Source of the DNA: Bacteroidales bacterium | GTDB taxonomy: Bacteria; Bacteroidota; Bacteroidia; Bacteroidales; F082 | DNA: 64,000 bases | NCBI GenBank assembly: GCA_017549805.1 | Contig: JAFYNJ010000008.1 | Location: 1-64,000 of the forward strand | Direction of reading: 5' to 3' | Shown here: in pieces, positions 10,533 to 63,745 of the stretch | Layout of the letters: each line of letters opens with the position of its first letter | Numbering within the stretch: the stretch's first letter is position 1 | The notes under the pieces: generated by a model | Seen by the model: only the letters and a program-made list of their open reading frames with translations | Database searches by the model: none | Told to the model about the DNA's origin: nothing | Position numbers and translations under genes: made by a program

Positions 10533-10563
10533 CTCTAAACTTTAAACACTAAACTCTAAACTC
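10533..10563. repeat. 7-base-period tandem repeat, yajC / DUF1573 junction
   Basis: Four and a half units occur: CTCTAAA, CTTTAAA, CACTAAA, CTCTAAA and CTC. The repeat fills the spacer between the DUF1573 stop codon (10562-10564, partly inside the repeat) and the yajC start. Confidence 0.9.
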
Positions 10564-11020
10564 ACAATTGATTCGGCGTCCTCACTTCGGCCTTGATGCG
10601 AAGTGCACTTTGCGACGGCAAGGTGTTCGAGTTCACAATCAGCACCTTGGATTGGAAGCCATGATGGCCCTTGCTGTCGTAGGTGATTTTAATTCCTCCT
10701 GATTCGCCCGGCTGGATGGGTTCGCGGGGATAATCGCTGGCCGTACAACCGCAACTCTTATCCACGCTGGTAATCAGCAGAGGGGCATTGCCAGTATTGG
10801 TGAAATGGAAAGTGTAGGATACCACCTCCCCTTGCAAGATCTTGCCAAAGTCGAATTCGTTCTTGTCGAACTTGATCACGGCTTTCTTATCGGAAGGAGC
10901 CTGTGCCGACTTAGGGTTGGTCACCAAATCACCGGAAAGTTGTTTTTGCCCATCGTTCTGGCATGAAACCAACATCAAGGACACAACCATCCATATCAAA
11001 AACAAAAATATTCTCTTCAT
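10562..11020 (-). CDS. DUF1573 lipoprotein
   Basis: The mature part is an Ig-like DUF1573 domain with the hallmarks FDFGKILQGEVVSYTFHFTN, ITSVDKSCGCT and YPREPIQPGESG. The ATG at 11020 gives MKRIFLFLIW and a lipobox LVSC with the lipidated Cys at residue 20 (152 aa). A frame opening 18 bases earlier (MKTENR) would come from repeat sequence in the spacer and is less likely. DUF1573 proteins are abundant in Bacteroidota and predicted to be periplasmic-facing lipoproteins; their function is unknown. It follows the gliding-type protein gene almost without a gap, so the two are probably co-transcribed. Confidence 0.88.
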   Translation of the reverse strand: MKRIFLFLIWMVVSLMLVSCQNDGQKQLSGDLVTNPKSAQAPSDKKAVIKFDKNEFDFGKILQGEVVSYTFHFTNTGNAPLLITSVDKSCGCTASDYPREPIQPGESGGIKITYDSKGHHGFQSKVLIVNSNTLPSQSALRIKAEVRTPNQL

Positions 11021-11021
11021 C

Positions 11022-11042
11022 CTATTTTCAGTTTTCAACTAC
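11022..11042. repeat. Short 7-base-period repeat between two minus-strand genes
   Basis: Three units (CTATTTT, CAGTTTT, CAACTAC) fill the gap between the DUF1573 start and the stop codon of the preceding gene (TAG, complementary to 11039-11041). The same CAGTTTT unit recurs at 35953-35966. Confidence 0.6.
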
Positions 11043-12025: not shown

Positions 12026-12051
12026 GGACGATTCTTATTTCAATAAGATTG

Positions 12052-12100: not shown

Positions 12101-12110
12101 CCATTTCAAA

Positions 12111-12133
12111 CTCTAAATTCTAAATTCTAAATT
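12111..12133. repeat. 7-base-period repeat forming the hutU leader
   Basis: CTCTAAA, TTCTAAA, TTCTAAA and TT abut the hutU start codon directly, so no purine-rich ribosome binding site is present. Confidence 0.85.
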
Positions 12134-14610: not shown

Positions 14611-17933
<3,323 letters not shown>

Positions 17934-17949
<16 letters not shown>

Positions 17950-18261: not shown

Positions 18262-18375
18262 GATTTTGTGGAATGTCCTGCCCAATTATCGAACTTCTTC
18301 GAGGATTTTAATAAGGTTGTGTGTTTCATCGAAAAACACTATGCGGTTAATAAGTGGGTATAATATAAATAGTGG

Positions 18376-19245
18376 GTGTTTGAGGATTGTAGAATTGTAA
18401 TTGATAAGTTGAAGTTATGTTATAAAAGAGATAATGAGAGCCAGTTTTGGCAGATGATGGCAGAGCAACCCGACCATCTTCAAGTGGGTGATTTTGATTT
18501 GGTCAGAGGTCAAGCCGATGGAATGTTTGAAGGTATCTATGGGGTGTTCTATGCTCAACATGAATTTGGCACATTGCTATTTGATAGGTTTTCGGATAAG
18601 GAGAAAAGATATTGTTGGTTGAGCATAAGAAATCAAGTGTTTTATTCCGATGTGATGAGCATTGCCATGCTCAACGAGTTTCAAGATGCAGTTGGATTTG
18701 AGTGTATCAATAACATCACCCAATTGGAATTGGCTTGCGATTTGCCATTTAACCCAGTGCCGAGGATTAAGAAGTTGCTGAAACGAGACGATGTTTCAGT
18801 TGTACGATGCGGAACGAAGATTGAGGATAAGAAACAGGTGATTGATGGCTTGTTTTTTCTCCATCCCACCAGCGGACTGAAAGAACTTGCACCGACCATG
18901 TATTTCAGCGATAACGACAAACGAAAATCTTTTGTGGTCTATGATAAGAAGAAGGAAATTCAGCGAAGCAATAAGACTTATATTGCCGACTACTATGGCA
19001 AGCCAAAGCACCTGTATAGGATGGAAATAAGGTTGACCTCCGATGAACTATTCCGTTACTTCAAGAAAAATGATATATCACCTTCAGTTGATTTGCTTAT
19101 CGACCAGTCGTTTTTGAAATCCATGTACGATGAATTTCTGTTTCGATTGCTCCATTTCAGTTACAGGCGAAAATCCATTGGCTTATTGGATGCGGTGTTG
19201 GCGATGAAAGAAGGGTATGATTTAGATGTGAAGATGCACCATTAG
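18376..19245 (+). CDS. Putative Rep_trans-like replication initiator / relaxase
   Basis: This 289-aa protein resembles the Rep_trans (NicK-like) rolling-circle initiator group by pattern, not by clear identity. It has an N-terminal VIDKLKLCY strand, ITQLELACDLPF (compare the family's TRLDLAxD), KSFVVYDKKKEI (compare RxYdKxxE) and LYRMEIRLTSDELFRYF (compare RxExxL). The start is GTG at 18376, because a stop lies in frame at 18370-18372 and no ATG occurs before codon 27. The alternative is that the 5' end was lost at the element boundary. It would nick an element origin for replication or mobilisation, but the catalytic Tyr cannot be assigned with confidence. It is the first gene of the AT-rich island. 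Confidence 0.5.
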   Translation: MFEDCRIVIDKLKLCYKRDNESQFWQMMAEQPDHLQVGDFDLVRGQADGMFEGIYGVFYAQHEFGTLLFDRFSDKEKRYCWLSIRNQVFYSDVMSIAMLNEFQDAVGFECINNITQLELACDLPFNPVPRIKKLLKRDDVSVVRCGTKIEDKKQVIDGLFFLHPTSGLKELAPTMYFSDNDKRKSFVVYDKKKEIQRSNKTYIADYYGKPKHLYRMEIRLTSDELFRYFKKNDISPSVDLLIDQSFLKSMYDEFLFRLLHFSYRRKSIGLLDAVLAMKEGYDLDVKMHH

Positions 19246-19402
19246 GGATATAACCATAGTCCCCACCGATACACCAATCATATCCCTGTGGATGCAAGGT
19301 TATGTATCAAAACCAAGTGTGTATCAGTATAATCTTATTTTGGTATTTCAAAACTATCAATTTTTCATACCTTATAATCATTTAGATTTGATTGATTTCT
19401 TG

Positions 19403-19431
19403 TTGGACTATTTTCCATTTTTGTATCTTTG
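19403..19431 (+). promoter_or_regulatory. Promoter of the small membrane protein gene
   Basis: TTG at 19403-19405, an 18-base spacer, then TATCTTTG at 19424-19431, close to the Bacteroidota consensus. The ATG follows 27 bases later. The 157 bases between the Rep-like gene and this promoter show nothing I can name. Confidence 0.75.
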
Positions 19432-19458
19432 CATCAAATAAACCTAAAGAATAAAACT

Positions 19459-20007
19459 ATGAAAACAACAGCAATTATTATTCTAAGCACTTGTTTATTG
19501 GCCTTAATTGTTTGCTATCTTGTGTTCAAGTTAAAAGGGAAAGCGAAAGATGCTCTGTTAGACCAGCCATTATTTGCAATCTCAAAGAATGGTTTTCTTG
19601 GTTTTGTTATTGGCGACCAGTTCGATTTCGTATGGGCAAGAATTACGCATCTTGGTTTAGCGACCCAAAAAGAAATGCTTGATTATAAAAAGGACATGGA
19701 AGCAAAGCAAATGTTTGGGATAGGCTCGAACACCATTAAAGTTGCAACAAATAAGTTTGAAGAGATAGACTATATCTCCTTAGGCTTTGATGCAGGAAAC
19801 AATCTCAATAGTATTATGGTTTATGTAAACAACAAACCAAACACAATGATTAAAGACTACTTGATGGAAATCCGTGATAAATATGCGAAGATATTAGGTG
19901 AACCAAATATGGTTAATAGTGACATTACATGCCAATGGATGTTCAAGGGAGTAATGATTGTGTTGTTCTATGCAAACAACCAGATAACACTTCACATTCA
20001 TAATTAA
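19459..20007 (+). CDS. Hypothetical protein with one N-terminal membrane helix
   Basis: The 182-aa protein starts at the ATG at 19459. A frame opening 30 bases earlier overlaps the promoter. Residues about 4-24 form a single transmembrane segment or uncleaved signal (IIILSTCLLALIVCYLVF), followed by KLKGKAK, so the remainder probably faces the outside or sits at the membrane. The rest is mixed alpha/beta with no motif I recognise. It has its own promoter, is AT-rich like the rest of the element, and is likely element cargo. Confidence 0.65.
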   Translation: MKTTAIIILSTCLLALIVCYLVFKLKGKAKDALLDQPLFAISKNGFLGFVIGDQFDFVWARITHLGLATQKEMLDYKKDMEAKQMFGIGSNTIKVATNKFEEIDYISLGFDAGNNLNSIMVYVNNKPNTMIKDYLMEIRDKYAKILGEPNMVNSDITCQWMFKGVMIVLFYANNQITLHIHN

Positions 20008-20017
20008 GATAGTCTTA

Positions 20018-20296
20018 TCATTTTATATCTATCAATTGTTCCCTTTTTAATCCAAGATAATTCTTAGACTTGTTTTCAGTTTCTTTCAAGATGATTTCGC
20101 CTTTACGAATGATGTAGCCAGTTTTGGTGACATATTCCAATGGCTTGTTTTCTTTCCGTAACTTGCAGAAGGCATTGTTTAGTGAATGAATGTTGATGCC
20201 GAGTTCTTCATCCGAGTGTTTGTCATACATGGATGCAGGTGAACCGAAAAACTCAAAGCCAGTTTTCCATTCAAGATAGATTACATTTCGTGCCAT
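20018..20296 (-). CDS. Small hypothetical protein of the element
   Basis: The 92-aa protein starts at the ATG at 20296 (MARNVIYLEW). A TATCTTTG box lies 20 bases upstream on the minus strand, which excludes the longer frame from 20389. It contains WKTGFEFFGSPASMYDKHSD and ends in a Lys/Glu-rich tail. No family is recognised. It is convergent with the membrane protein gene (10 bases apart) and divergent from the resolvase gene, a position often used by small regulators, but no helix-turn-helix can be shown. Confidence 0.55.
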   Translation of the reverse strand: MARNVIYLEWKTGFEFFGSPASMYDKHSDEELGINIHSLNNAFCKLRKENKPLEYVTKTGYIIRKGEIILKETENKSKNYLGLKREQLIDIK

Positions 20297-20315
20297 ACAT
20301 GGTTTAGATTTGGTG

Positions 20316-20323
20316 CAAAGATA
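20316..20323 (-). promoter_or_regulatory. -7 element for the small minus-strand gene
   Basis: TATCTTTG on the minus strand, 20 bases before the start at 20296. No clear -33 box. Confidence 0.6.
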
Positions 20324-20376
20324 ACCTATGTAATCGGAAAAAATTATTATTTGTATCAAAAAATCTTTCAAAATTA

Positions 20377-20407
20377 TTTGGTGTATCATATAATAATCGT
20401 ATCTTTG
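20377..20407 (+). promoter_or_regulatory. Promoter of the resolvase gene
   Basis: TTTG at 20377-20380, exactly 19 bases, then TATCTTTG at 20400-20407. This is one of the best matches to the Bacteroidota consensus in the window. Confidence 0.85.
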
Positions 20408-20435
20408 TGTTGTAATTCAATAAACACGCATCACT

Positions 20436-21056
20436 ATGGAAAACGCAGTCATTTACGCAAGAGTTTCAACGCAAGGTCAAGACTATGACAGACAGGTCGA
20501 AGAATTAAGAGCCTATGCTCAACGCAATGATTATCAAATTGTTGCAGAGTTTACCGAGAAAATCAGCGGAGCGAAGAAGGTGGATGAGCGCAACGCCATG
20601 ACCGAAATGCTTGATTTCGTGGTCGCCAACGATGTGAAACGAGTTCTTGTTTACGAGTGCAGCCGTATCAGCCGCCGTGCCGCCGATTTCTTGAACATCA
20701 TAGACTTTCTGACCGAACATAAGATTTCGCTTTACATTCACCAAAATGGACTTGAAACACTGCAAAGAGACGGCAGCATCAATCCCATTGCTCAACTTGT
20801 TTTGGGTATCATCGGCCAGTTCAACCAAATGGAGCGTGGTCTAATCCGTAGCCGTATGGAAAGCGGCTATAACCATTATCGTAGCAACGGAGGCAAAGTG
20901 GGTCGCAAGGTGGGTTATAAGAAATCCGATGAGCAGATGAAGGAAGAGTACGCCGAGGAAATCCGCTTGTTGAAGAAGGGAATTTCGTTGCGCAATGTGC
21001 AGAAAATCAGCGGAACATCCATAAACACCCTTCGAAAACTGAAGGAAATGCTCTGA
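20436..21056 (+). CDS. Serine recombinase of the resolvase/invertase type
   Basis: The 206-aa protein has an N-terminal catalytic domain with nucleophile Ser11 in YARVSTQGQD, the conserved RVLVYECSRISRRAADFL segment and GQFNQMERGLIRSRMESG. A C-terminal helix-turn-helix (about residues 178-203, LLKKGISLRNVQKISGTS) binds DNA. Such enzymes resolve cointegrates or invert DNA, making a 2-base staggered cut through a phosphoserine link. It has its own strong promoter. It may resolve element multimers or act together with the large recombinase. No duplicated res sites were identified. Confidence 0.92.
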   Translation: MENAVIYARVSTQGQDYDRQVEELRAYAQRNDYQIVAEFTEKISGAKKVDERNAMTEMLDFVVANDVKRVLVYECSRISRRAADFLNIIDFLTEHKISLYIHQNGLETLQRDGSINPIAQLVLGIIGQFNQMERGLIRSRMESGYNHYRSNGGKVGRKVGYKKSDEQMKEEYAEEIRLLKKGISLRNVQKISGTSINTLRKLKEML

Positions 21057-21375
21057 AAATGAGCATTTTATCTATGTTCGTTTTGATTTTAATGTGACGG
21101 AGAAATTACCCACAGAATAGAATATGTAATTATTTTATAATCAATGAATTACAACCAAAATAAAGATGCTTTTATTGCCGTTATCCGCCTCCCGAAAAGG
21201 GGGGTATATGGTAAGCACAATAGGGGGCGAACAATTAGCCATGAAAATTTTTCTCCAGTTCCGACCTGTTTTTTATTGACTTTCTACCCTTTCCATACTA
21301 TTTATTTTTTGGTAATGAAAACTACCAAAAACTATAACTCAAAAAAGTGAAACGATTGAGATTGTAAAAAGTGAA
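21057..21375. other. Intergenic stretch with a GC-rich hairpin, possible transfer or replication origin
   Basis: This 319-base AT-rich gap holds a 6-base stem CCTCCC / GGGGGG with loop GAAAA at 21188-21204, and shortly after it a G-run near 21223. A 68-codon frame at 21144-21350 passes through it, but its composition is not convincingly coding. GC-rich hairpins in AT-rich gaps of mobilizable elements can be nick sites; that is a guess here. Confidence 0.3.
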
Positions 21376-21597
21376 ATGGAAATAATTGGAAAAATTGAAA
21401 TGACTATGGAAAAGAACTACAAAAGGCAGTACAGGGAGTGCCCTGTGGAAGTAAGAAAGAAAATCAGCGACAAGATGAAAGGCAGGAAGAAATCAGACAT
21501 GACCAAGCAACGAATTTCGATGGGAATGAAAAACTATTGGCGTGATGTGCCATCAATGAGTGGCAGCGATTTCACCAGCACAGGAAGGATAGTGTGA
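21376..21597 (+). CDS. Small NUMOD3-like basic protein
   Basis: The 73-aa protein is strongly basic. Its centre, VRKKISDKMKGRKKSDMTKQ followed by RISMGMKNYW, resembles the NUMOD3 module, a short DNA-binding motif normally attached to homing nucleases. Here it stands alone, without a GIY-YIG or HNH domain. Internal starts at 21400 and 21406 are also possible. It is followed by a weak hairpin terminator. It may be a DNA-binding accessory factor of the element, which is inference. Confidence 0.5.
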   Translation: MEIIGKIEMTMEKNYKRQYRECPVEVRKKISDKMKGRKKSDMTKQRISMGMKNYWRDVPSMSGSDFTSTGRIV

Positions 21598-21620
21598 CTT
21601 GTTTTTTTCAAGTTTTTTCT
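21597..21620 (+). terminator. Weak terminator after the NUMOD3-like gene
   Basis: A 5-base stem ACTTG / CAAGT with a T7 loop is followed by TTTTTC. Confidence 0.5.
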
Positions 21621-21662
21621 ATATATTATCTTCTAATAATAAAGGGTATCATTTAGTTATGG

Positions 21663-21845
21663 ATGCTTAATTATCAAGATTATGACGAAGATTTTAGAAG
21701 ATTAGGAATTGACGAAAACGAACAGAAGGTGGTATTAGACTTTTTCCACCAGTTGGGAGAAATCCTGTTGTATAATAACATTGAAAAACCTATAAACGAT
21801 GGCTTGGAAACGGAAACAGAAGAGGAAAGAAGCAAAGCAAGTTGA
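21663..21845 (+). CDS. Small acidic protein overlapping the large recombinase gene
   Basis: The 60-aa acidic protein (MLNYQDYDEDFRRLGIDENE) has a predicted helical core (VVLDFFHQLGEILLY) and overlaps the recombinase start by 47 bases in another frame. Small acidic genes translationally coupled to large serine recombinases are plausible partners, such as directionality or regulatory factors. No homology is claimed. It could also be a chance frame. Confidence 0.45.
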   Translation: MLNYQDYDEDFRRLGIDENEQKVVLDFFHQLGEILLYNNIEKPINDGLETETEEERSKAS

Positions 21846-23388
21846 ATTTGCGAAGTTAGAGCATAAGGTTGCTGCCTTATGGACAAGGGTATCAAGTGGC
21901 GAACAAGAGCAGAACAATTGCAGTTTGGAAAGCCAAGAAAAGATATGCCGTGAGTATGCGGAGCGTAACGGAATAACCATTAAGAAACACTATGGAGATA
22001 CACATGAGAGTGCGAAAACAATGGGTAAATTATTTAATCAGATGATTTCAGAAGTCACACGAGACAAAGAGATAAACATCATTTTGGTTAGTTCTTATGG
22101 ACGATTTAGCCGTACAGGGTCGGAGGCATCAGTGTTGAAAGCATTATTGAAATCGAAAGGCATTTATGTTGTCAGTGCCACACAGCCAGTTGACCCAGAT
22201 AGTGCAACAGGTGAGTTTATGCAAGACATTCTTTTGCTTTTCTCCAAGTTTGACAATACGATTAGAAAAGACAAGTGCGTGGGCGGCGTTAGAGATTGTT
22301 TGCTCCGTGGAGAATGGGCTTTTCGTGCGCCATTCGGGTACGACCATTATAAAACGGATAAGACACACCATTTGAAAGTGAATGAAAAGGGAGAGATATT
22401 GAGAAAGGCATTTTATTGGAAGGCTTACGAGGGGTTGAGCAATCCCGAAATATGTGACAGATTGAAAGCCCTCGGAATAACCATGAACAGAAAGAGATTG
22501 TCCGAAATTTTCTTGAACCCAGTTTATTGTGGCTACATTAAAAACACACTACTTGATGAAGGTGTGTTGATAAAAGGCAATTTTGAACCCTTGGTGGATG
22601 AAGAAACCTTCAAGATAATCAACGGCAAGTCAAGGGCAGGGTATGACCAAAAAGAGGAAACGGACAAGTTCCCACTAAAACGCCATGTCAGATGTGCCGA
22701 TTGTGGTGGGTATCTAACAGGATATACGGTAAAAGCCAAAGGTAAAGACTATTACAAGTGCAACAAGATTGGTTGTAAGCATAACCAGTCCGTAGTAAAG
22801 ATGCACAATAAGTATATCGGTCTGTTGGAAAGTTATGGCATCCCAAAAGAGTTTCACCCCATATTGAAGAAGGTGCTAACGAAATTGTTTGACCAAAGCA
22901 ACAAGACCAGAGTTGAAACAACGAACCTGCTCAACAAGCAGAAATCCGAAGTGGAGAATAAAATCAAGACTGCGAAGTATAGACTTGGAATTGGTGAAAT
23001 CAGTAAAGATGTGTATGAAGTCACCATTTCAACATTGGAGGATAAACTTTCTGAAATCAAGGTGCAGTTGGGAAGTTTGTCGGAAGATTTATCGAACCAA
23101 ATGAAGTATATTGACAAGGTAATCGTAATGTGTTGTAAATTAGGAGATTTATGGAAAAACAGTGACTTTCGTTTAAGGCAAAATCTTCAATCTTTGGTGT
23201 TTCCCGATGGAGTTTTGTATGACAAGAAAATGGATGGTTATCGAACCGAAAATGAGAACGAAGTTTTTGATATATTTCGCAGATTTTCAGATGCTTATAA
23301 AAACAACAAGGGGGCAGCAGTTGACCTGTTGTCCCCTAAAGTGGAGATTACCGGACTCGAACCGGCCACCTTCAGATTGCGAACCTGA
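21799..23388 (+). CDS. Large serine recombinase (site-specific integrase)
   Basis: The 529-aa protein has the full architecture of the family: a catalytic domain with Ser32 in WTRVSSGEQEQ, SSYGRFSRTG and the ATGEFMQDILLLFSKFD helix; a Recombinase domain with APFGYDHY and LNPVYCGYI; a zinc ribbon with Cys299, Cys302, Cys321 and Cys326 (CADCGG, YYKCNKIGC); and a coiled coil (about 365-430). It integrates and excises the element without long homology. The last 25 or so codons run over the terminator and then antisense through the tRNA-Ala gene, ending at a TGA at 23386-23388 within it. This C-terminal tail is therefore dictated by tRNA sequence and is probably a by-product of the integration site. 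Confidence 0.92.
   Translation: MAWKRKQKRKEAKQVEFAKLEHKVAALWTRVSSGEQEQNNCSLESQEKICREYAERNGITIKKHYGDTHESAKTMGKLFNQMISEVTRDKEINIILVSSYGRFSRTGSEASVLKALLKSKGIYVVSATQPVDPDSATGEFMQDILLLFSKFDNTIRKDKCVGGVRDCLLRGEWAFRAPFGYDHYKTDKTHHLKVNEKGEILRKAFYWKAYEGLSNPEICDRLKALGITMNRKRLSEIFLNPVYCGYIKNTLLDEGVLIKGNFEPLVDEETFKIINGKSRAGYDQKEETDKFPLKRHVRCADCGGYLTGYTVKAKGKDYYKCNKIGCKHNQSVVKMHNKYIGLLESYGIPKEFHPILKKVLTKLFDQSNKTRVETTNLLNKQKSEVENKIKTAKYRLGIGEISKDVYEVTISTLEDKLSEIKVQLGSLSEDLSNQMKYIDKVIVMCCKLGDLWKNSDFRLRQNLQSLVFPDGVLYDKKMDGYRTENENEVFDIFRRFSDAYKNNKGAAVDLLSPKVEITGLEPATFRLRT
23297..23336 (-). terminator. Terminator of the tRNA-Ala gene, lying inside the recombinase frame
   Basis: On the minus strand an 11-base stem (23310-23320 with 23326-23336, two G-T pairs, loop of five) is followed by TTGTTGTTTTT, just past the tRNA 3' end. 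Confidence 0.75.
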
Positions 23389-23414
23389 CGTTCTACCAGA
23401 TGAACTAAATCCCC
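23342..23414 (-). tRNA. tRNA-Ala (anticodon CGC)
   Basis: The 73-base cloverleaf is complete. The acceptor GGGGATT pairs with AATCTCC and has the G3-U70 pair that identifies alanine tRNAs. The D-arm stem is GTTC/GAAC, the anticodon stem TCAGG/TCTGA with loop TTCGCAA, and the T-arm GCCGG TTCGAGT CCGGT. The discriminator is A and CCA is not encoded. Anticodon CGC reads GCG. It has its own promoter and terminator and marks the right side of the AT-rich island. The large recombinase frame runs into it antisense. Confidence 0.96.
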
Positions 23415-27019: not shown

Positions 27020-27054
27020 AACTGCCAACTGTTAACTGTCAACTTCCAACTGTT
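27020..27054. repeat. 7-base-period repeat at the sufE / MIP18 junction
   Basis: Five units: AACTGCC, AACTGTT, AACTGTC, AACTTCC, AACTGTT. It abuts the MIP18-like start codon and encodes the sufE stop and last residues. Confidence 0.95.
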
Positions 27055-27460: not shown

Positions 27461-27465
27461 TTCAA

Positions 27466-27496
27466 CTTTTATCTTTTATCTCTTATCTTTTATCTC
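27466..27496. repeat. 7-base-period repeat at the sufS / sufE junction
   Basis: CTTTTAT, CTTTTAT, CTCTTAT, CTTTTAT and CTC. It contains the sufS stop codon (complement of 27490-27492). Confidence 0.9.
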
Positions 27497-28704
27497 AACA
27501 TGGTCGCCGCTCGATTCACCGCCTTCACCAACACATCCACCTCCTCCAAGGTGTTATACATCGCGAAAGAGGCACGCACCGTGCCGGGGATGCCGAAACG
27601 GGTCATCACGGGCTCGGCGCAATGGTGACCAGTGCGTACGGCCACGCCCATCTTGTCAATAATCGTACCAAGGTCGTATGGATGGATGCCATCGATAATG
27701 AAACTCACCAAGCCACTGCGCTCGGGAGCCTCTCCGATGAAACGCATCCCTTCAATCTTTGACAAGCCTTCTATCGTAGCAGCTACCAAAGCATCTTCGT
27801 GTTTGGTCACTTCTTGACGGTCAAAACTCTCAATGAACTGAATGGCTGTTTCCAACCCCAAGGCAGCACCAACATTGGGCGTACCCGCCTCGAATTTGAA
27901 GGGCAACTTGTTAAAGGTGGTCTTCTCAAAACTCACCGTGTCAACCATCTCACCACCAAACTGGTAAGGCGGCATTTTTTCGAGCAACTCGGTCTTGCCA
28001 TACAAGCCGCCGATACCCATGGGGGCGTACATCTTATGGCCAGAGAACACAAAGAAGTCGCAGTCCAAGTCCTGCACATCAATCGGCAAATGGGCCATCG
28101 ACTGGGCACCATCCACCACGACCAATGCACCATGCTGATGCGCCAGGCGGATCATCTCCTTAATGGGATTTACCGTACCCAAGGTGTTCGAGACATGGGT
28201 CATGGCCACAATCTGCGGACCTTGTTTCAGTTGCGCTTCGTAGGCATGAAGATCCAGCACACCGTTGTCGTCCATGGGAGCCACCAGCAGTTCGCCTCCT
28301 TGACGCTGAACCATCTGCTGCCAAGGCACGAGGTTGGAATGGTGTTCCATGGCGGTCACAAGGACCTTAGTTGAGAGTTGAGAGTTGAGAGTTGAGAGCG
28401 AAGTGGCAAGAAGATTCAGCGATTCCGTGGTGCCTCTCGTGAAGACAATCTCATGGGCTTCGGGGGCGTTGATGAAACGTGCCACGGTCTGCCTGGCATG
28501 CTCGTAAGCCTCAGTGGCCATCTGGCTGAGATAATGCACCCCACGGTGAATGTTGCAGTTCTCGTGTAAGTAATAGTCACGTTCACGCTCAATCACACAA
28601 AGGGGTTTCTGGGTAGTCGCGGCATTGTCGAGATACACCAATGGCTTGCCATAGACCAGCTGGTCAAGGACGGGGAACTGCTTCCTTATTTCGTTGACAT
28701 CCAT
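27490..28704 (-). CDS. sufS: Cysteine desulfurase SufS
   Basis: This 404-aa PLP enzyme mobilises sulfur from L-cysteine. The Schiff-base lysine is Lys224 in FSGHKMYAP, and the persulfide-forming Cys362 lies in RTGHHCAEP. YLDNAATTQKP, TRGTTESLNLLA, TAMEHHSN and VVVDGAQS are conserved. Residues about 102-112 (LSTLNSQLST) are encoded by a 7-base-period repeat inserted between NLLA and the VTAMEHHSN strand, where relatives have a similarly placed loop. The active site is intact. The start overlaps the sufD stop as TAATG. Confidence 0.96.
   Translation of the reverse strand: MDVNEIRKQFPVLDQLVYGKPLVYLDNAATTQKPLCVIERERDYYLHENCNIHRGVHYLSQMATEAYEHARQTVARFINAPEAHEIVFTRGTTESLNLLATSLSTLNSQLSTKVLVTAMEHHSNLVPWQQMVQRQGGELLVAPMDDNGVLDLHAYEAQLKQGPQIVAMTHVSNTLGTVNPIKEMIRLAHQHGALVVVDGAQSMAHLPIDVQDLDCDFFVFSGHKMYAPMGIGGLYGKTELLEKMPPYQFGGEMVDTVSFEKTTFNKLPFKFEAGTPNVGAALGLETAIQFIESFDRQEVTKHEDALVAATIEGLSKIEGMRFIGEAPERSGLVSFIIDGIHPYDLGTIIDKMGVAVRTGHHCAEPVMTRFGIPGTVRASFAMYNTLEEVDVLVKAVNRAATMLR
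28369..28396. repeat. 7-base-period repeat inside sufS
   Basis: Four exact units of AGTTGAG (28 bases), reverse complement of the mfd second repeat and matching the rluD downstream repeat. Confidence 0.95.
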
Positions 28705-30300: not shown

Positions 30301-30328
30301 TCTAAATTCTTAATTCTTAATTCTAAAT
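30301..30328. repeat. 7-base-period repeat at the sufB / sufC junction
   Basis: TCTAAAT, TCTTAAT, TCTTAAT, TCTAAAT, abutting the sufB stop codon (complement of 30328-30330). Confidence 0.9.
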
Positions 30329-35908: not shown

Positions 35909-35910
35909 AC

Positions 35911-39263: not shown

Positions 39264-39298
39264 CAGTTTGTAGTTTGAAGTTTGTAGTTTGCAGTAAA
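39264..39298. repeat. 7-base-period repeat in the secA leader
   Basis: CAGTTTG, TAGTTTG, AAGTTTG, TAGTTTG, CAGTAAA, between the -7 element and the start codon. Confidence 0.9.
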
Positions 39299-42429: not shown

Positions 42430-42464
42430 CTTCTGTTTTCTTACTTCTGTCTCCTGACTTCTTC
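42430..42464. repeat. 7-base-period repeat at the coaD 3' end
   Basis: CTTCTGT, TTTCTTA, CTTCTGT, CTCCTGA, CTTCTTC. It contains the coaD stop (complement of 42441-42443) and encodes its last residues. Confidence 0.75.
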
Positions 42465-53613: not shown

Positions 53614-55617
53614 ATGGAAAACGATCAATTCAAACTGCCCGAGAACGCACAGCGAGAACTGAAACCGGGCGAGGAGTACGAACCCATTTTATCGAAAAAC
53701 AAGAAGTATCAAGAGGTAACAGTTTGGTCGGTATGCATCGGCTTACTGATGACCATTCTTTTCTCAGCTGCTGCCGCTTACCTCGGCCTGAAGGTCGGAC
53801 AAGTGTTCGAAGCTGCCATCCCGATTGCCATCATCGCCATCGGCCTCACGGGTTTAGCACGCAAGAATGACGCGCTTTCCCAGAACGTCATCATCCAGTC
53901 CATCGGCGGCTGCTCGGGTGGTGTGGTGGCAGGTGCCATCTTCACCTTGCCAGCCCTTTACATCCTCCAAGGCAAAGGCTACCAAATTGAAATCAACTTC
54001 TGGCAGGTGTTCATCGCCTCGCTGCTGGGCGGCATCTTGGGCATCCTGTTCCTCATCCCCTTCCGCAAATATTTCGTGAAAGAACAGCATGGCAAGTTCC
54101 CCTTCCCCGAAGCCACTGCCACTACACAGGTGTTGGTTAGCGGACAGAAGAAAGGCAAAGACTCTTTGCTATTGGTAGTTAGCGGACTTATCGGCGGTTT
54201 GTACGACTTCATCGTCTCGACCTTCGGTTGGTGGTCGGAAACCATCACCACCCGTATGATGGGATGGGGCGCTGCAATGGCCGACAAAGCCAAGTTGATG
54301 TTTAAGGTAAACACAGGCGCCGCCGTCCTAGGCTTGGGTTATATCATCGGATTGAAATACGCCTTCATCATCTGCTGCGGTTCCCTATTGGTTTGGTTCA
54401 TCATCATCCCAGGCATGAACCTCATCTGGGGAGACCAAATCATCGACTTGATGAACACTGGCGTCAACCTTACTATCGGCGAGATGGCTCCCGAACAAAT
54501 CTTCAAGGACTACGCACGCCATATCGGCATCGGCGGTATTGCCATGGCGGGTATCATCAGTATCATCAAGTCATGGAAGGTCATCAAGTCGTCAGTAAGC
54601 CTCGCCGCCAACGAATTCAAGGGCAAAAAAGGCGTTCAGCAAGTGGTGGAACGAACCCAGCAGGACATCCCCATGAAAATGGTGGTCATCGGCATTGTGG
54701 CCGTGCTCATTGTCACTTTCCTGTTTTTCTGGTTCTTCGTCGTCCATAACGTATGGCACGCTCTAATCGGCATCCTCGTCGTAGCTGTCATCGCCTTCCT
54801 GTTCACCACCGTGGCTGCCAATGCCATTGCCATTGTGGGCAGCAATCCTGTGAGTGGCATGACGCTGATGACCCTAATCCTGGCCTCCATCGTGATGGTG
54901 GCGGCAGGTCTCACGGGTCCGCAAGGCATGAGCGCTACGCTGATCATCGGCGGCGTGGTATGCACAGCATTGGCTGTGGCAGGAGCTTTCATCACCGACT
55001 TGAAGGTCGGCTACTGGATTGGCACAACACCTAAAAAACAAGAGATCTGGAAGTTCGTTGGTGTGGCCGTTGCCGCTGCCACTGTGGCCGGTGTCATCAT
55101 GATCCTTAACAAAGCTTACGGTTTTGTGGGTGATCGCGCTTTGGTAGCTCCCCAAGCCAACGCTATGTCGGCTGTCATCGAACCCATGATGTCGGGCGGC
55201 AACGCTCCTTGGTTGCTTTACGGCATCGGAGCTGCCATCGCCTTGATCCTCAACTTCTGCAAAGTGCCCGCACTGCCCTTCGCCTTGGGTATGTTCATCC
55301 CCATCGACTTGAACATCCCGCTGCTCATCGGTGGTGCCGTCTCTTGGTTTGTGAGCTCGCGCAGCAAAGACAAGCAACTCAACGATGCACGCTACAACCG
55401 TGGCACCCTCATTGCCTCAGGCTTCATCGCCGGTGGTGCCTTGATGGGTGTGGTGAGCGCCATCATGAAATTTGCCAATGTCGATTTGATGGCCCGCACT
55501 GCCGACGGTGGCTTCTTCAACGAAATGCCGCTCGCAGGTCTCATTGCACTGGCAATGTACATCATTATCATAGTTTACATGATCTGGGATTCAAAACGAG
55601 CAAAAGTCGAGGAATAA
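53614..55617 (+). CDS. OPT family oligopeptide transporter
   Basis: The 667-aa polytopic protein (about 14-16 hydrophobic helices) of the OPT superfamily imports peptides or metal chelates, driven by the proton gradient. Characteristic parts are VGLMTILFSAAAAYLGLKVG-like first helix (here GLLMTILFSAAAAYLGLKVG), NVIIQSIGGCSGGVVAG, PFPEATATTQVLVSG, and KVPALPFALGMFIPIDLN near the C-terminus. The length is typical of prokaryotic OPT proteins. Substrate is unknown, with peptides likely. It has its own promoter and possible operator, and may read into pyrH 29 bases downstream. Confidence 0.93.
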   Translation: MENDQFKLPENAQRELKPGEEYEPILSKNKKYQEVTVWSVCIGLLMTILFSAAAAYLGLKVGQVFEAAIPIAIIAIGLTGLARKNDALSQNVIIQSIGGCSGGVVAGAIFTLPALYILQGKGYQIEINFWQVFIASLLGGILGILFLIPFRKYFVKEQHGKFPFPEATATTQVLVSGQKKGKDSLLLVVSGLIGGLYDFIVSTFGWWSETITTRMMGWGAAMADKAKLMFKVNTGAAVLGLGYIIGLKYAFIICCGSLLVWFIIIPGMNLIWGDQIIDLMNTGVNLTIGEMAPEQIFKDYARHIGIGGIAMAGIISIIKSWKVIKSSVSLAANEFKGKKGVQQVVERTQQDIPMKMVVIGIVAVLIVTFLFFWFFVVHNVWHALIGILVVAVIAFLFTTVAANAIAIVGSNPVSGMTLMTLILASIVMVAAGLTGPQGMSATLIIGGVVCTALAVAGAFITDLKVGYWIGTTPKKQEIWKFVGVAVAAATVAGVIMILNKAYGFVGDRALVAPQANAMSAVIEPMMSGGNAPWLLYGIGAAIALILNFCKVPALPFALGMFIPIDLNIPLLIGGAVSWFVSSRSKDKQLNDARYNRGTLIASGFIAGGALMGVVSAIMKFANVDLMARTADGGFFNEMPLAGLIALAMYIIIIVYMIWDSKRAKVEE

Positions 55618-55646
55618 CAACTGAACAACTAAACAACTGAACAACC
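55616..55646. repeat. 8-base-period repeat before pyrH
   Basis: AACAACTG, AACAACTA, AACAACTG, AACAACC, ending at the pyrH ATG. It is the one clear member of the group with period 8 instead of 7. Confidence 0.9.
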
Positions 55647-56354
55647 ATGAAATACAAAAGAGTTTTATTGAAGCTTAGCGGCGAAGCCCTTATGGGCAGC
55701 CAACAATACGGCATCGACCCGCAACGTCTGAATGACTACGCCGACGAAATCATCGAGGCTGCCAAGACTGGCGTACAGATTGGCATCGTCATTGGCGGTG
55801 GCAACATCTTCCGTGGCCTTCAAGGCGCCTCACAAGGCATGGACCGCATCCAAGGCGACTACATGGGCATGCTCGCCACCGTCATCAACTCGATGGCCAT
55901 GCAATCGACCCTACAAGGCAAAGGCCAAAAGGCCACCCTGCTCTCCGGTCTCTACATCGACCGCATCGCCGACACTATGAGCTCCGCCAAGGCCATCCGC
56001 CTGCTCGAAGAAGGCCATATCGTCATCATGGGCGCCGGCACGGGCAACCCCTTCTTCACCACCGACACCGGCAGCGCCCTCCGCGCCGTTGAAATCAAGG
56101 CCGACATCATCCTGAAAGGCACCCGCGTCGATGGCATCTATACCGCCGACCCCGAGAAGGACCCCACTGCGACCAAATTCAGCCAACTGACCTACGACGA
56201 GGCCTATAGCCGCAACCTCAAGGTGATGGACATGACCGCCTTCACGATGTGCAAGGAAAACAACATGCCTATGTACGTGTTCGACATGAACACAAGAGGA
56301 AATCTTCTGAAGGTGCTCCAAGGAGAACACATCGGTACGCTGGTGACAAGATAG
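55647..56354 (+). CDS. pyrH: Uridylate kinase
   Basis: The 235-aa hexameric UMP kinase belongs to the amino-acid-kinase fold. LLKLSGEALMG, VIGGGNIFRG, DYMGMLATVINSMAMQ, MGAGTGNPFFTTDT and GTRVDGIYTADPEK are all present. It makes UDP for RNA, DNA and nucleotide-sugar synthesis. Length is normal. Its start codon abuts an AACAACTG-type repeat and its stop codon begins the next tandem repeat, so both edges of the gene are framed by such tracts. pyrE of the same pathway is 11 kb away. Confidence 0.97.
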   Translation: MKYKRVLLKLSGEALMGSQQYGIDPQRLNDYADEIIEAAKTGVQIGIVIGGGNIFRGLQGASQGMDRIQGDYMGMLATVINSMAMQSTLQGKGQKATLLSGLYIDRIADTMSSAKAIRLLEEGHIVIMGAGTGNPFFTTDTGSALRAVEIKADIILKGTRVDGIYTADPEKDPTATKFSQLTYDEAYSRNLKVMDMTAFTMCKENNMPMYVFDMNTRGNLLKVLQGEHIGTLVTR

Positions 56355-56394
56355 TTAGGAGTTGGGAGTGAGGAGTTAGGAGTGAGGAGTTGGG
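56353..56394. repeat. 7-base-period repeat between pyrH and the glycosyltransferase
   Basis: Six units: AGTTAGG, AGTTGGG, AGTGAGG, AGTTAGG, AGTGAGG, AGTTGGG. It ends six bases before the next ATG and offers a GA-rich ribosome-binding-like context. Confidence 0.95.
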
Positions 56395-56399
56395 AAAAG

Positions 56400-59863: not shown

Positions 59864-59879
59864 GTTCGAAATATTTTAT

Positions 59880-60822: not shown

Positions 60823-62674
60823 ACAAACGGGATTGGCAATATTGATCTGCCTGATTCCAAACTTGTTTTCGGCTCAGGAAATCCTTACTGGATTCAACCA
60901 TAGGACCACTCACAATATGCTGACACGCACACAAGAAGCGTTGACGCTACCATTCTATGACGATTTTTCCAATTCCTGCGTCTATCCCGACAGCACAAAA
61001 TGGACGGATCGCGATGTTTTTGTCAATCAAGGGTTCCCTCTGAATCCCGTCACCCGAAACGCCGCCACCCTCGATGTCCTTGACGCCAGCGGATGCGTTT
61101 ATCCCTACGCCATCAGCAATCCGTTCATTGCAGAACACCTTACTTCGGCACCCATTCGTCTTGATTCAGTCTTCAACCCCGAACCCAGAGCGCTCTCCCC
61201 CATCGATTCCCTGTACTTCAGTTTCTTTTACCAGCCACAAGGCAATGGCAATCCTCCCGAGTCACAGGATTCATTGGTTTTGGAATTCGGCGTGCCTAGT
61301 GAAATCGACACCAGTTGGTATCATGTATGGAGTACGCCCGGACAGACTCTCGCCCAGTTTCTTCAGGAAAACGACAGCAACTATTTCAAGCAGGTCATGA
61401 TACCCATCACTGACTCGAGATTCTTCATTCCCAATTTCCTGTTCCGTTTTTACAACTATGCCAGCATTGCCAATCAATCCCAACCCACTAACCGTGGTAA
61501 CGAGGACAACTGGAACATTGACGTGGTGTACCTCAACCAAGGCAGAAGCTACAACGACGGATCTTATCCTAAAATCAGCTTCACGGGACCCATTCCATCT
61601 TTCCTGAAACGTTACCAATCCATGCCATACAAGCACTACCGCGCCAATCCGAATGCAAGCATCACCGAGGAATACGAACTGCAACTGTCCAATCTTGACA
61701 ACCAAACGCATACGATTAGGCATCGCTATACCGTCGATCAAGTCAACGGCAACCAGTCCTACAGCTATCCAAGCACTTTCCCCTCCACCCTGGAACCCCA
61801 AACCTACAACCAAACCAAAAACGCCTTTGTTTCGCAACTCTTCTCAATGGATTACGACCGCGACTCCACTTCATACATCATTCGTCACTACATCAGCGAC
61901 TCCACATGCAATCCTCCCATGGTTGACTCCATGGTTTACCGCCAAGGATTCTACAACTATTTCGCATACGACGACGGGATTCCCGAGATGGGCTATGGTG
62001 TAGAGCCCTCGTCAGGAGCCTTTGCCGTACAGTTTGAGCTGGCAGAGATGGATACGCTACGCGGCGTTCAGATTCTTTTCAACCACACTCTCAAGGATGC
62101 CAACAACAAGTACTTCGACATTGTTGTCTGGAAAGACAACAACGGCAAACCAGGAGATGAGGTTTACCGTTTGTCGGGCAGAAAGCCCAAATGGGACGAA
62201 CAACTGTATAAATTTGCCTATTACCAATTCGATCAGCGCATCCGTCTCAACGGAGTCTTTTATGTAGGTATCGTACAACAAAACTCAGGTCTCATCAACG
62301 TGGGCTTCGACACCTCAAACGACAACTCACAATACAACTACTTCAATGTTACAGGTTCATGGCAGAATAGCACCAAACCGGGATCCATCATGATCCGTCC
62401 CGTGGTCGGGGCAGGCTATTACATTGGGGTATCCGAAGACCAAGTGGACAATCAAATCTCCATCTATCCCAATCCCGCCACCTCCACCATCCACATTGAA
62501 GGGATTGTCCATGGTTCCTCCATCACAATGTATGACCTCACCGGAAGAGTCGTCGTGCAGCGTCCCTATTCGAACGAAATCTCCATCGAGCACCTCCATA
62601 ACGGTCTTTACTTCTTGAATGTCACCACTGCCGACGGCGTTGTCATCGGCAAAAAAATCATGGTTAACCGATGA
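60806..62674 (+). CDS. Secreted T9SS protein linked to PASTA and rluD
   Basis: The 622-aa protein has a signal peptide (ending LFSAQ). The N-terminal half resembles an adhesin-like or choice-of-anchor beta-sandwich (LPFYDDFSNSCVYPDSTKW), with no enzymatic motif seen. The last 85 residues are a type A T9SS domain (QISIYPNPATSTIHIE, MYDLTGRVVVQR, LHNGLYFLNVTTADG, KKIMVNR). The gene overlaps the PASTA gene upstream and rluD downstream (four bases), so all three are expressed together. The reason for linking an exported protein to rluD is not known. Confidence 0.9.
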   Translation: MKTIFKQTGLAILICLIPNLFSAQEILTGFNHRTTHNMLTRTQEALTLPFYDDFSNSCVYPDSTKWTDRDVFVNQGFPLNPVTRNAATLDVLDASGCVYPYAISNPFIAEHLTSAPIRLDSVFNPEPRALSPIDSLYFSFFYQPQGNGNPPESQDSLVLEFGVPSEIDTSWYHVWSTPGQTLAQFLQENDSNYFKQVMIPITDSRFFIPNFLFRFYNYASIANQSQPTNRGNEDNWNIDVVYLNQGRSYNDGSYPKISFTGPIPSFLKRYQSMPYKHYRANPNASITEEYELQLSNLDNQTHTIRHRYTVDQVNGNQSYSYPSTFPSTLEPQTYNQTKNAFVSQLFSMDYDRDSTSYIIRHYISDSTCNPPMVDSMVYRQGFYNYFAYDDGIPEMGYGVEPSSGAFAVQFELAEMDTLRGVQILFNHTLKDANNKYFDIVVWKDNNGKPGDEVYRLSGRKPKWDEQLYKFAYYQFDQRIRLNGVFYVGIVQQNSGLINVGFDTSNDNSQYNYFNVTGSWQNSTKPGSIMIRPVVGAGYYIGVSEDQVDNQISIYPNPATSTIHIEGIVHGSSITMYDLTGRVVVQRPYSNEISIEHLHNGLYFLNVTTADGVVIGKKIMVNR

Positions 62675-63723
62675 GTGAGGAGCTTCTTGACGACATCTTG
62701 GAAAACGATAACACCGACGAGGAAAACGGTGAACTTTACGAGCATATCCGCATCGTAGTCGATAAAGGCCAGGCACAGGAACGCATCGACACCTTCCTGA
62801 CCAACCACATCCAGAACATTTCACGCAACCGCGTGCAGAATGCCGCCAAGGCAGGTAACATCCTTGTCAACGACAAGGTGGTGAAACAAAACTACAAGGT
62901 GAAGCCGAACGATGTCATCTCCATCGTGTTCAGCTATCCTCCACGGGAAATCAACATCACGCCGCAGGAGATTCCGTTGAACATCGTCTATGAAGACGAT
63001 GACATCATCGTGATCAACAAGCAGGCGGGACTGGTGGTGCATCCTGGCCACGGCAACTTCGAAGGCACGCTGCTGCACGGCTTGGCATGGCATTTCCAAC
63101 AAACCCATCAAAATGTAGAAAACAAGTTCGGATATTTAGTACACCGCATCGACAAGGACACTACCGGCTTGATGATCGTGGCCAAGAACGAAACCGCCCA
63201 AGCCATCCTGGCGCACCAGTTTTTCGAGCACACCATTCACCGCAGATACCATGCCTTGGTTTGGGGCGACTTCAACGAGGACGAAGGAACCATTGAGGGC
63301 AACATCGGGCGAAGCCCCAACGACCGCCGCAAGATGACGGTCTATCCCAACGGAGACCATGGCAAGGAGGCCATCACCCACTGGCATGTCATTGAACGCT
63401 TCGGTTATGTCACACTCAACGAGTACCGCCTGGAGACTGGACGCACCCACCAAATCCGTGTCCACTCGCAATACATAGGCCATCCATTGTTTAATGACGC
63501 AGTGTATGGTGGCAACATCATCCTCAAAGGAACCACCTTCTCAAAATACCGTCAGTTTATCGACAACTGCTTCAAACTCCTACCTCGACATGCACTGCAC
63601 GCCAAGGAACTGGGATTCATTCATCCCACGACCAAGAAAGAAATGCTGTTCACCTCCGAACTCCCCGACGACATGACTGCCGTCTTAGAGAAATGGCGGA
63701 GATATGTTAAAGTTGAGAGTTGA
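62671..63723 (+). CDS. Large-subunit rRNA pseudouridine synthase, RluD family
   Basis: The 350-aa protein has an acidic N-terminal extension, an S4 RNA-binding domain (about 36-100, ERIDTFLTNH and AGNILVNDKVVKQNYKVKPN) and the RluA-type catalytic domain with Asp161 in HRIDKDTTGLMIVAK, then RRYHALVWG and RLETGRTHQIRVH. It isomerises uridines in 23S rRNA; the exact positions cannot be set, and RluC- or RluA-type specificity is possible. The last residues, KVES, and the stop codon lie in a 7-base-period repeat. Confidence 0.94.
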   Translation: MSEELLDDILENDNTDEENGELYEHIRIVVDKGQAQERIDTFLTNHIQNISRNRVQNAAKAGNILVNDKVVKQNYKVKPNDVISIVFSYPPREINITPQEIPLNIVYEDDDIIVINKQAGLVVHPGHGNFEGTLLHGLAWHFQQTHQNVENKFGYLVHRIDKDTTGLMIVAKNETAQAILAHQFFEHTIHRRYHALVWGDFNEDEGTIEGNIGRSPNDRRKMTVYPNGDHGKEAITHWHVIERFGYVTLNEYRLETGRTHQIRVHSQYIGHPLFNDAVYGGNIILKGTTFSKYRQFIDNCFKLLPRHALHAKELGFIHPTTKKEMLFTSELPDDMTAVLEKWRRYVKVES

Positions 63724-63745
63724 GGGTTTAGAGTTGAGAGTATAG
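63711..63745. repeat. 7-base-period repeat between rluD and hldD
   Basis: AGTTGAG, AGTTGAG, GGTTTAG, AGTTGAG, AGTATAG. It contains the stop codons of both convergent genes (63721-63723 and the complement of 63728-63730). Confidence 0.92.

Follow-up and report, generated by a model that had tools for sequence, protein, structure and literature searches.

Short sequences with some features of the arrays described here are known from several bacterial groups. Rickettsia palindromic elements insert in frame into conserved genes; they are palindromic, longer, and without heptamer structure, and the in-frame arrays in conserved genes reported below resemble them in behaviour only. The STRR repeats of heterocystous cyanobacteria have a heptanucleotide period in common with the Bacteroidales arrays and are set side by side with them on that period alone. 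For Xanthomonas and Nostoc, the sections of Rehm et al. (2015; PMC4692102) on which we draw, which also mention Calothrix heptanucleotides, describe GGGAATC and GGGGA(C/T)T heptamers mostly arranged as four units in co-oriented spacers, on the sense strand close to stop codons, seldom between divergent genes and with many inverted pairs. According to the authors, most of these repeats are flanked by the same genes in two species and differ there in length and sequence; the repeats can form G-quadruplexes, to which the authors tie the four units. TAACTGA repeats were reported from Beggiatoaceae, Cyanobacteria, and five Bacteroidetes, and their mobility was raised as a possibility (MacGregor, 2015; PMC4679880, in excerpt). 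The Bacteroidales arrays resemble them as gene-edge heptamer direct repeats with stop codons in all frames of one strand, and mostly on the opposite strand when deep inside open reading frames; thus, a Bacteroidota counterpart, of which the preliminary description knew none, was already published. Both papers, in the parts used here, cite a 2007 survey, since which the bacterial preference for seven-letter repeats has stood as a question. Finally, REP elements associated with RAYT transposases are dispersed units of 20–40 bp near 3' ends, single or in inverted pairs and sometimes within genes (PMC3733652, in excerpt), as are the Bacteroidales arrays; the single Bacteroidales arrays, however, are direct repeats and not palindromes.

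The window, a 64-kb stretch of a genome (G000) from a group of uncultured Bacteroidales, was scanned with Tandem Repeats Finder and with a stricter score of our own (threshold at least 9). About fifteen tracts had been proposed, and Tandem Repeats Finder returned 13 of the 14 listed period-7 places as well as the period-8 place at 55616; at the remaining place, 11022, only about two copies are present and no array was returned. Two of the returned arrays were weak (42430, 65% matches; 27020, 76%). The stricter score gave 11 tracts, with 27020, 42430, and 63711 dropping out and a short tract at 31831 joining. The window contains five exact period-7 match runs of at least 12, whereas periods 2–6, 8–13, and 15 have no such run. 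A de-duplicated 799-kb sample of the same genome, at a tract score of at least 12, contained 72 tracts of period 7, seven of period 8, three of period 15, one of period 3, and none of periods 2, 4–6, or 9–13; period 14, a multiple of 7, was outside the count. One order-1 Markov control yielded no period-7 segments against 76 real ones in a sample that still included a duplicated stretch. The heptamer tracts are therefore real, and period 7 exceeds both chance and the other periods, as in the heptanucleotide long simple sequence repeats of the class described by Mrazek. The period is as fixed as first claimed, and far sharper than ordinary slippage would give.

The duplicated stretch belongs to contig C30, which is 99.99–100% identical to positions 1–30774 of the window and was therefore taken as bin redundancy; its use as a second strain copy for a comparison within the genome was rejected on the same ground. 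C30 was excluded from the main counts, although part of it was still included in the Markov control and in the first word tally. Contigs C13 and C14 also have one locus in common, and further bin redundancy may remain. The AT-rich island at 18.3–23.3 kb (GC 0.38) is free of period-7 tracts, as the preliminary description had pointed out; given some 9 tracts per 100 kb, an island of this size should hold less than one, and its lack of tracts is uninformative.

Most arrays of the window lie at gene ends or in short spacers. A CTCTAAA/TTTAGAG array of 4.4 copies (10533–10563, minus strand) is located on the 3' side of a predicted gene (10562–10975, minus strand), as judged from Tandem Repeats Finder and the gene calls, and a TCTAAAT array returned by the same program (12108–12133, minus) abuts the ATG (12134) of the urocanase gene. 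The degenerate AACTGNN array at 27020–27052 (no strand assigned) and the weak AGAAGNN array at 42430–42462 (minus) are both found at gene ends. The gene sufS terminates (stop at 27490) within the first unit of the exact 32-bp array AGATAAAAGATAAGAGATAAAAGATAAAAGTT (27464–27495, minus), and an AAGAATT/TTAGAAT array (30301–30329, minus) fills the spacer after sufB, beside the gene at 29540–30292, presumably sufC. Two AACGGAR/AACTGAR arrays in inverted orientation (35907–35979, no strand assigned; returned at 35907 and 35940) separate convergent genes, with secA on the right, and are predicted to form a strong hairpin (-34 kcal/mol, z -5.9). An AGTTTGT/AGTTTGA array (39265–39295, plus) stands immediately upstream of secA (minus strand), which is called from 39258, although a longer open reading frame extends past the array to 39345. 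The period-8 array AACAACTG (55616–55645, plus; 3.8 copies) directly precedes pyrH, an AGTTAGG/AGTGAGG array (56353–56395, plus) begins at the pyrH stop codon, and an AGTTGAG/GGTTTAG array (63711–63741, plus) spans the stop codon of a pseudouridylate synthase gene. Three further arrays are located within genes. An AGGTGAG array with one AGTTAGA-type unit (15391–15425, plus) lies inside mfd (14611–17949, plus); read from the sequence, a third unit matching the rest would create an in-frame stop codon. The same gene contains, in frame, an exact 32-bp AGTT(GAGAGTT)4 (15530–15561, minus), which on the gene strand reads QLSTLNSQLST. In sufS, a 30-bp AGTTGAG array (28369–28398, plus) is in frame and antisense to the gene, in a loop that carries other inserts in several related species.

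The crowding at gene edges, that is, in short spacers and at stop codons, held beyond the window. In G000 (n=72), 39 tracts were located in co-oriented spacers, 7 in convergent and 3 in divergent ones, 22 inside genes, and 1 at a stretch end; the corresponding numbers in a second species, G022 (n=66), were 31, 20, 3, and 12 inside genes. The per-spacer contrast between convergent and divergent spacers was significant in G022 (P 0.002) and not in G000 (P 0.21). Distances of at most 10 nt from a stop codon were recorded for 29/46 tracts in G000 and 34/51 in G022. Inverted pairs accounted for 28 of 77 tracts in G022 and only 5 of 88 in G000; such pairs do fold, whereas the one single array folded, that of sufS, had no structure.

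This crowding, together with the strong hairpins of inverted pairs and the presence of at least two purine-strand stop codons in 44/50 (G000) and 36/54 (G022) gene-edge tracts, would suit a selected signal: a stop block in all frames, a hairpin terminator at the 3' end, or the binding site of a repeat-reading protein. We consider this improbable. Units bearing purine-strand stops exceeded the shuffled value in G000 (58/72 vs. 48.9) but fell below it in G022 (38/66 vs. 46.8), and stop-codon-bearing units were rejected as a general rule. Moreover, a signal of this kind fits poorly with the in-gene tracts of both species (22/72 and 12/66) and with the 20 of 30 occupied G000/G022 spacers that are filled in one species only. 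The in-gene tracts of G000, an aspect little stressed in the preliminary description, included 6/22 with at least two stop codons in some sense-strand frame (0/12 in G022); therefore, whether a stop is avoided within genes depends on the frame, and the avoidance is not absolute. Essential genes are not spared: in-frame arrays were found inside sufS, mfd, ileS, murE, and nqrA. In the sample of G040, whose stretches were selected around arrays, 21 of 32 arrays were in-gene, and the pyrimidine-rich strand was the sense strand in all 21.

Comparison of relatives demonstrated turnover at orthologous sites. Among 108 spacers that G000 and G022 have in common, 10 carried tracts in both species (expected 3.25), and in 5 of these 10 the words differed at two or more of the seven letters, as the preliminary description had anticipated. 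Thus, an array is sometimes kept in place between sister species while its word changes: the word at the 3' site of pyrH is AACGGAA in G022 and AGGTGAA in genome G010, and that at the pseudouridylate synthase gene is AGATAAA in G022. The mean word distance at common orthologous sites was 1.8 vs. 2.76 for random pairs (P 0.003). Since some memory of the word is retained, persistence with drift accounts for part of what re-insertion would otherwise explain. Between the close relatives G018 and G040, 14 of 26 sites were conserved, and a 152-kb alignment contained 63 clean indels, of which 9 were of exactly 7 nt; eight of these nine lay in arrays or nascent arrays, and a script flagged five as exact tandem duplicates. 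Arrays in place thus change by 7-nt steps between close relatives.

These steps are what replication slippage acting separately at each locus would produce. In the version put forward by Mrazek et al. (2007), cited in the consulted parts of PMC4679880 and PMC4692102, heptamers are favoured by the polymerase footprint, which spans about 7 nt. The very sharp period agrees with this explanation, as do some long arrays in other Bacteroidota (16/56 of at least 50 nt). In G000 and G022, exact mismatch-free period-7 runs also become fewer as they get longer, and only G040, whose sampled stretches were chosen around arrays, has a second hump of such runs. Slippage likewise better suits the AGGTGAR arrays, which are less uniform than the AGATAAR arrays, with many mosaics and with long runs in G010, and the AGTT-closed runs of G000, where three-unit runs (24; reversed control 11) outnumber four-unit ones (20; control 2). 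Nevertheless, as the source of the tracts slippage appears rather unlikely to us, because the extents peak near 32 nt, the words are drawn repeatedly from a small set, and the same order of internal variants is found at different loci. With mismatches allowed and a score of at least 10, and hence a minimum of 17 nt, extents of 28–38 nt were found in 59/88 (G000), 39/77 (G022), 18/31 (G018), and 22/34 (G040) tracts; shorter ones of 17–27 nt numbered 14, 9, 6, and 2, and those of at least 39 nt 15, 29, 7, and 10, respectively.

The recurrence of words contradicts the earlier statement that each locus has a different unit: AGTTGAG alone occurs at 15529, 28369, and 63711, and 62 of 72 G000 tracts had an exact unit in common with another locus, against a mean of 19.4 and a maximum of 28 in 40 shuffles. 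The proposed AACT/AGTT core applies in part, in that AGTT closes many four-unit arrays across several word families, whereas AGATAAA and AACGGAA have no such core inside. Whole arrays recur as well. The 32-bp sequence AGATAAAAGATAAGAGATAAAAGATAAAAGTT, with the same odd unit, was found at 18 places in G000 and G022, in 17 distinct spacers. A hand tally of AGATAAR arrays that stand alone, have four units, and carry just one G variant, made once two duplicate places and every overlapping match had been removed, put the variant in the second unit in 18 of 22 (G000 11/14, G022 7/8; binomial vs. 1/4, 3.6e-8); without one of two arrays sharing an orthologous spacer the count was 17/21 (1.2e-7). All 18 arrays with the variant in unit 2 were followed by TT. 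AGTT(GAGAGTT)4 also recurs in the genus; among the 25 AGTTGA-type arrays in the G040 sample, 12 match it exactly. The flanks of recurring arrays had no similarity except for partner arrays. Since words recur, and entire 32-bp arrays of one family recur at different places with an identical internal variant, the heptamers there look copied and not freshly made. This qualifies the earlier interpretation, a mechanism that makes or keeps heptamers, of which the sharp period, the gene-edge crowding, and the turnover of words are supported.

We therefore propose, with a probability of roughly 0.55, that many of the tracts arose by copying of a dispersed, REP-like short element of about 32 bp and were later altered by slippage. 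In this element four heptamers of the pattern A-R-N-N-R-R-R (R, purine) would be closed off by a tetranucleotide, in many cases AGTT, so that the seven-letter period of such tracts would be a property of the element, not made anew at each place. It may spread by copying and land widely, persisting only where it does little harm, such as after stop codons, in short spacers, and in coding loops with an open frame. Inverted pairs would form hairpins and might serve as terminators. Later drift of the words by slippage and mutation would let some sites outlast their words. At a guess, copying could be ectopic, with an existing array as the source and template switching during replication or repair in place of a dedicated transposase; the arrays showed neither a target duplication nor a terminal inverted repeat, and no dedicated enzyme turned up. 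Seeding of words by the local sequence at the stop codon gave a weak signal, though not a null one: the summed match over 61 loci was 258 vs. 244.6, and 43 of 1000 permutations were at least as high.

Enzymes that might write or move the arrays were searched for in 30 genomes of the genus. The presence of Y1 transposase genes in 24 of them (77 matches) fits transposition by Y1/RAYT enzymes loosely; we rejected this candidate, as 19 of the 20 flanks examined (about 1 kb each) were without a period-7 array and one had a weak array. In this the arrays also differ from REP/RAYT systems, in which the transposase gene is flanked by repeat copies. Arrays written from an internal template, in the style of telomerase or a reverse transcriptase, would have the fixed period, the preferred length, and the frequent AGTT end with exchangeable words. 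RVT_1, however, was present in only 17/30 genomes and was not found in the array-carrying G010 and G013 (84 and 82% complete) or in G011 (100% complete, with some arrays); a reverse-transcriptase writer was rejected accordingly, and with no apparent route of integration an internal-template enzyme in general seems very improbable.

The arrays can also be compared with the Xanthomonas and Nostoc repeats. Both sets consist of heptamers in arrays of about four units near stop codons and are rare between divergent genes (here 3/72 in G000 and 3/66 in G022), and in our own comparison GGGAATC fits the RRR-AR-NN pattern of the Bacteroidales words (PMC4692102, in excerpt). The differences are that four GGG runs occur in 0/138 Bacteroidales tracts (72 from G000, 66 from G022), that several words coexist in one genome here, and that in-gene arrays are more common here (22/72 and 12/66, against 11% and 7% in the cited part of PMC4692102). 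In the Bacteroidales layout an array has about four and a half units and sits at a stop codon, one species has inverted pairs, and some common sites carry changed words. As this is much the layout of Xanthomonas but with words free of G-runs, it needs another cause, and the scarcity of G in the words speaks against G-quadruplexes as its general explanation. The excerpted TAACTGA study concerned a single word, whereas the Bacteroidales arrays use many; exact TAACTGA repeats were found as one set in G010, with none in the 799-kb G000 sample or in the stretches of the other genomes (nine besides G010).

More speculatively, and in our view doubtfully, these repeats could represent a distinct class of mobile mini-elements in which the form is conserved (four A-R-N-N-R-R-R heptamers and a closing tetranucleotide) while the word is free to change; a common cellular activity would write or copy them in Bacteroidales, Xanthomonas, and Cyanobacteria alike. 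Such a class would explain four-unit heptamer arrays with unrelated words at gene ends across phyla. With copies that have internal variants in common, the issue is no longer the reason for a seven-letter stutter but what it is that copies a 32-bp element. In addition, the arrays insert short, variable peptides into conserved enzymes of the genus, which is relevant to annotation and to apparent frameshifts in metagenome genomes. With regard to phage carriage, the AGATAAR 32-mer occurred in none of the viral stretches and the AGTTGAG 32-mer in eight.

The window is a 64-kb part of contig C8 of an uncultured Bacteroidales genome of 2.73 Mb (G000), whose close named relatives in a sufB search were metagenome-assembled genomes such as RUG13092. 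Tandem Repeats Finder recovered the period-8 tract and 13 of the 14 period-7 tracts listed in the preliminary description. The G000 sample, comprising the window and further stretches (799 kb in total, part of a duplicated contig removed), contained 72 tracts of period 7, seven of period 8, three of period 15, and one of period 3, with none of periods 2, 4–6, or 9–13; this density is not an unbiased estimate, since several contigs were picked for already known AGTTGAG arrays. In G022, a genome of the same genus sampled over 460 kb (80 kb of C3 and the initial 20 kb from each of 19 contigs), there were 66 period-7 tracts and at most three of every other counted period. At least one period-7 tract, mostly with other words, was present in 18 of 80 Bacteroidota loci around sufB (1.33 Mb); in 79 loci (L046 excluded), 22 of the 56 tracts extended over 28–38 nt and 16 over at least 50 nt. 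Positions 43460–74233 of C30 in G000 (L042, L138) duplicate window positions 1–30774 at 99.99–100% identity, and an identical locus is common to C13 and C14; these duplicate stretches are bin redundancy, which inflates counts.

The words, written on the purine-rich strand, were AGTTGAG, AGATAAR, AGGTGAR, AACGGAR, AGCTGAR, AGTGGAR, AGAAGNN, AGAATTN, and a few more (R, A or G). The proposal that each locus has a different unit was contradicted, as one word set is reused: the exact unit was also found at another locus for 62 of the 72 G000 tracts (40 shuffles: mean 19.4, maximum 28) and for 57 of the 66 G022 tracts (25.1 when shuffled). The related genomes G018 and G040 were excluded from this claim because their samples were selected around AGTTGAG arrays.

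Local slippage at each locus, the main rival explanation, is in our estimation unlikely for the arrays as a whole, and may well explain those word families that are less uniform. Slippage alone would be expected to produce a falling series of lengths. With a detector minimum of 17 nt, the tracts showed a preferred length, with extents clustering at 28–38 nt (59/88 tracts in G000, 39/77 in G022, 18/31 in G018, and 22/34 in G040). Exact-match runs, which are broken by each variant letter, became fewer with increasing length in G000 and G022; a second hump, at 25–27 matches, was seen in G040 only. The AGTTGA-type arrays of G040 were phase-locked, with exact AGTT(GAGAGTT)4 (32 bp) in 12 of 25. Four-unit A-R-N-N-R-R-R runs closed by AGTT numbered 20 in G000 and 21 in G022 (reversed sequence, 2 and 0), and three-unit runs 24 and 5 (reversed, 11 and 1). 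For G040, the reversed-sequence control is not clean, because AGTTGAG read backwards still scores as an AGTT-closed array.

We favor, with a probability of roughly 0.55, the reading that the arrays are a short dispersed element, which would be copied to new sites, persist where its copies are harmless, and then drift through slippage and mutation. It is chiefly the AGATAAR family that speaks for dispersal of a discrete element. The pattern AGATAARAGATAARAGATAARAGATAARAG, sought across 30 genus genomes, was matched in three. Among isolated matches with a single G variant, the G was in unit 2 in 18 of 22 (11/14 in G000, 7/8 in G022; C13:27369 and C30:70925, which are duplicates, and every overlapping match omitted), compared with the quarter expected under independent unit variation (3.6e-8). 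Isolated matches with zero or multiple G made up 4/18 in G000 and 4/12 in G022. In a BLAST comparison of 110-bp flanks, two of the 18 arrays (L250 in G000 and L163 in G022) represented one orthologous spacer, and the remaining similarities were, judged by position, inverted partner arrays; with one of the orthologous pair removed, the count was 17/21 (1.2e-7). TT directly followed the array in 18/18 unit-2-G copies. Among the matches listed, possible duplicates included, the last-purine order A-G-A-A across successive units was also commonest for AACGGAR in G000 (7 of 17 isolated matches, hand count) and in the related genome G008; it was not commonest in AGGTGAR arrays. AACGGAR and AGATAAR arrays share this order as if the word had been swapped on a single scaffold. 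Tests of Y1 transposases and of reverse transcriptases as the copying agent gave no support, and a test for local seeding of words gave a weak signal.

The G000 tracts were distributed among co-oriented (39), convergent (7), and divergent (3) spacers, predicted genes (22), and one stretch end; the corresponding G022 numbers were 31, 20, and 3 in spacers and 12 within predicted genes. A stop codon lay within 10 nt of 29/46 tracts in G000 and 34/51 in G022, the latter with a peak at -2 (11/51); gene ends are approximate, as the calls come from a custom hexamer model, and the proximity is partly built in because a stop-bearing word terminates any frame entering it. AACGGAR words contain no stop, yet often start at the stop codon. 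Arrays within genes are read in frame as added peptides, for example QLSTLNSQLST; NCBIfam-confirmed hosts encode SufS, Mfd (two arrays), isoleucyl-tRNA synthetase (two), NqrA, MurE, and a succinate dehydrogenase/fumarate reductase flavoprotein. Set against a solved SufS, the array takes the place of a loop or lengthens it. At this site, G022 and G010 have inverted heptamer arrays with other words, G020 and G040 have AGTTGAG arrays, G004, G013, G018, and G023 have inserts that lack heptamer arrays, and G011 and the loci L047 and L048 have zero added length. In sister species (the sufS site of G013, G004, G023, and G018; L186:14331 versus L233; L140 near 12661), the corresponding positions at gene junctions and within genes are filled by further small repeats that resemble GTCATTGCGAGG..., CCTTCGACAGGCTCAGG and CCCCATCGGGGTGCC, as if small repeats and heptamer arrays were interchangeable at shared sites.

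Alignment of orthologous spacers, suggested in the preliminary description as a way to see unit turnover, revealed changed words at 8 of the 10 sites with tracts in both G000 and G022 (two units the same, three one letter apart, five two or more apart). The mean unit distance there was 1.8, versus 2.76 for random pairs (P 0.003); therefore, sites retain partial memory of the word. The 10 shared sites, versus 3.25 by chance, came from 108 spacers, with tracts in G000 only in three, in G022 only in 17, and in neither in 78. The remaining genome pairs with enough spacers mostly lean likewise with small numbers (for example, G022/G010, 6/23 vs 2.4; G000/G013, 0/20 vs 0.2 expected). In the close species G018 and G040, compared over stretches selected around arrays, 26 aligned sites (score 10) had arrays in both (14), in G040 only (8), or in G018 only (4), and arrays had changed by single letters within units, by steps of 7 or 14 nt, or by complete replacement. 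Their 63 clean indels included nine of 7 nt, 32 of 1 nt, and none of 8 or 10 nt. Two arrays in one multi-domain gene with adenylation domains (L177:5378 and 10247, versus L217) differ by exactly one unit, and the two 7-nt steps shift the gene out of frame in G018 relative to G040; phase variation is not claimed, because the G018 copy has other damage.

An inverted partner within about 75 bp accompanied 28/77 tracts in G022 and just 5/88 in G000. In folding tests, three inverted pairs formed much stronger structures than shuffled sequences did (z -5.9 to -8.7); the one single array tested did not. Four GGG runs were found in 0/138 tracts, a result that speaks against G-quadruplex formation as the general reason for the layout.

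This kind of repeat is already known. Heptamer arrays sharing most of the layout found here, including a preferred count of four units, inverted pairs, and a 3'-end position, are described from Xanthomonas and Nostoc (Rehm et al. 2015; PMC4692102), and TAACTGA heptamers from Beggiatoaceae, Cyanobacteria, and five Bacteroidetes (MacGregor 2015; PMC4679880); both papers relay a previous proposal equating 7 nt with the footprint of a polymerase. Among the titles and abstract openings that searches of open-licence PMC papers listed, we found no further accounts of such arrays in Bacteroidales. We did not find described interchangeable words in one genome, 32-bp copies whose interiors match, arrays often inserted in frame in conserved genes, or the absence of G-runs. 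Three units of the Beggiatoaceae word TAACTGA occur near a start codon in G010 (L146:7128).

Two other features of the window were noticed. The AT-rich island at 18300–23414 (GC 0.38) carries two serine recombinase genes, adjoins a tRNA-Ala gene, and is probably an integrated mobile element. Positions 245–5467 code for a large BspA-type protein that has leucine-rich repeats and a cleaved-adhesin domain; long tandem repeats of 72 and 144 nt occur there. Lastly, the exact AGTTGAG 32-mer is present in eight IMG/VR contig stretches (L267–L274), which could be prophages of the array-bearing genus or misassigned host DNA.
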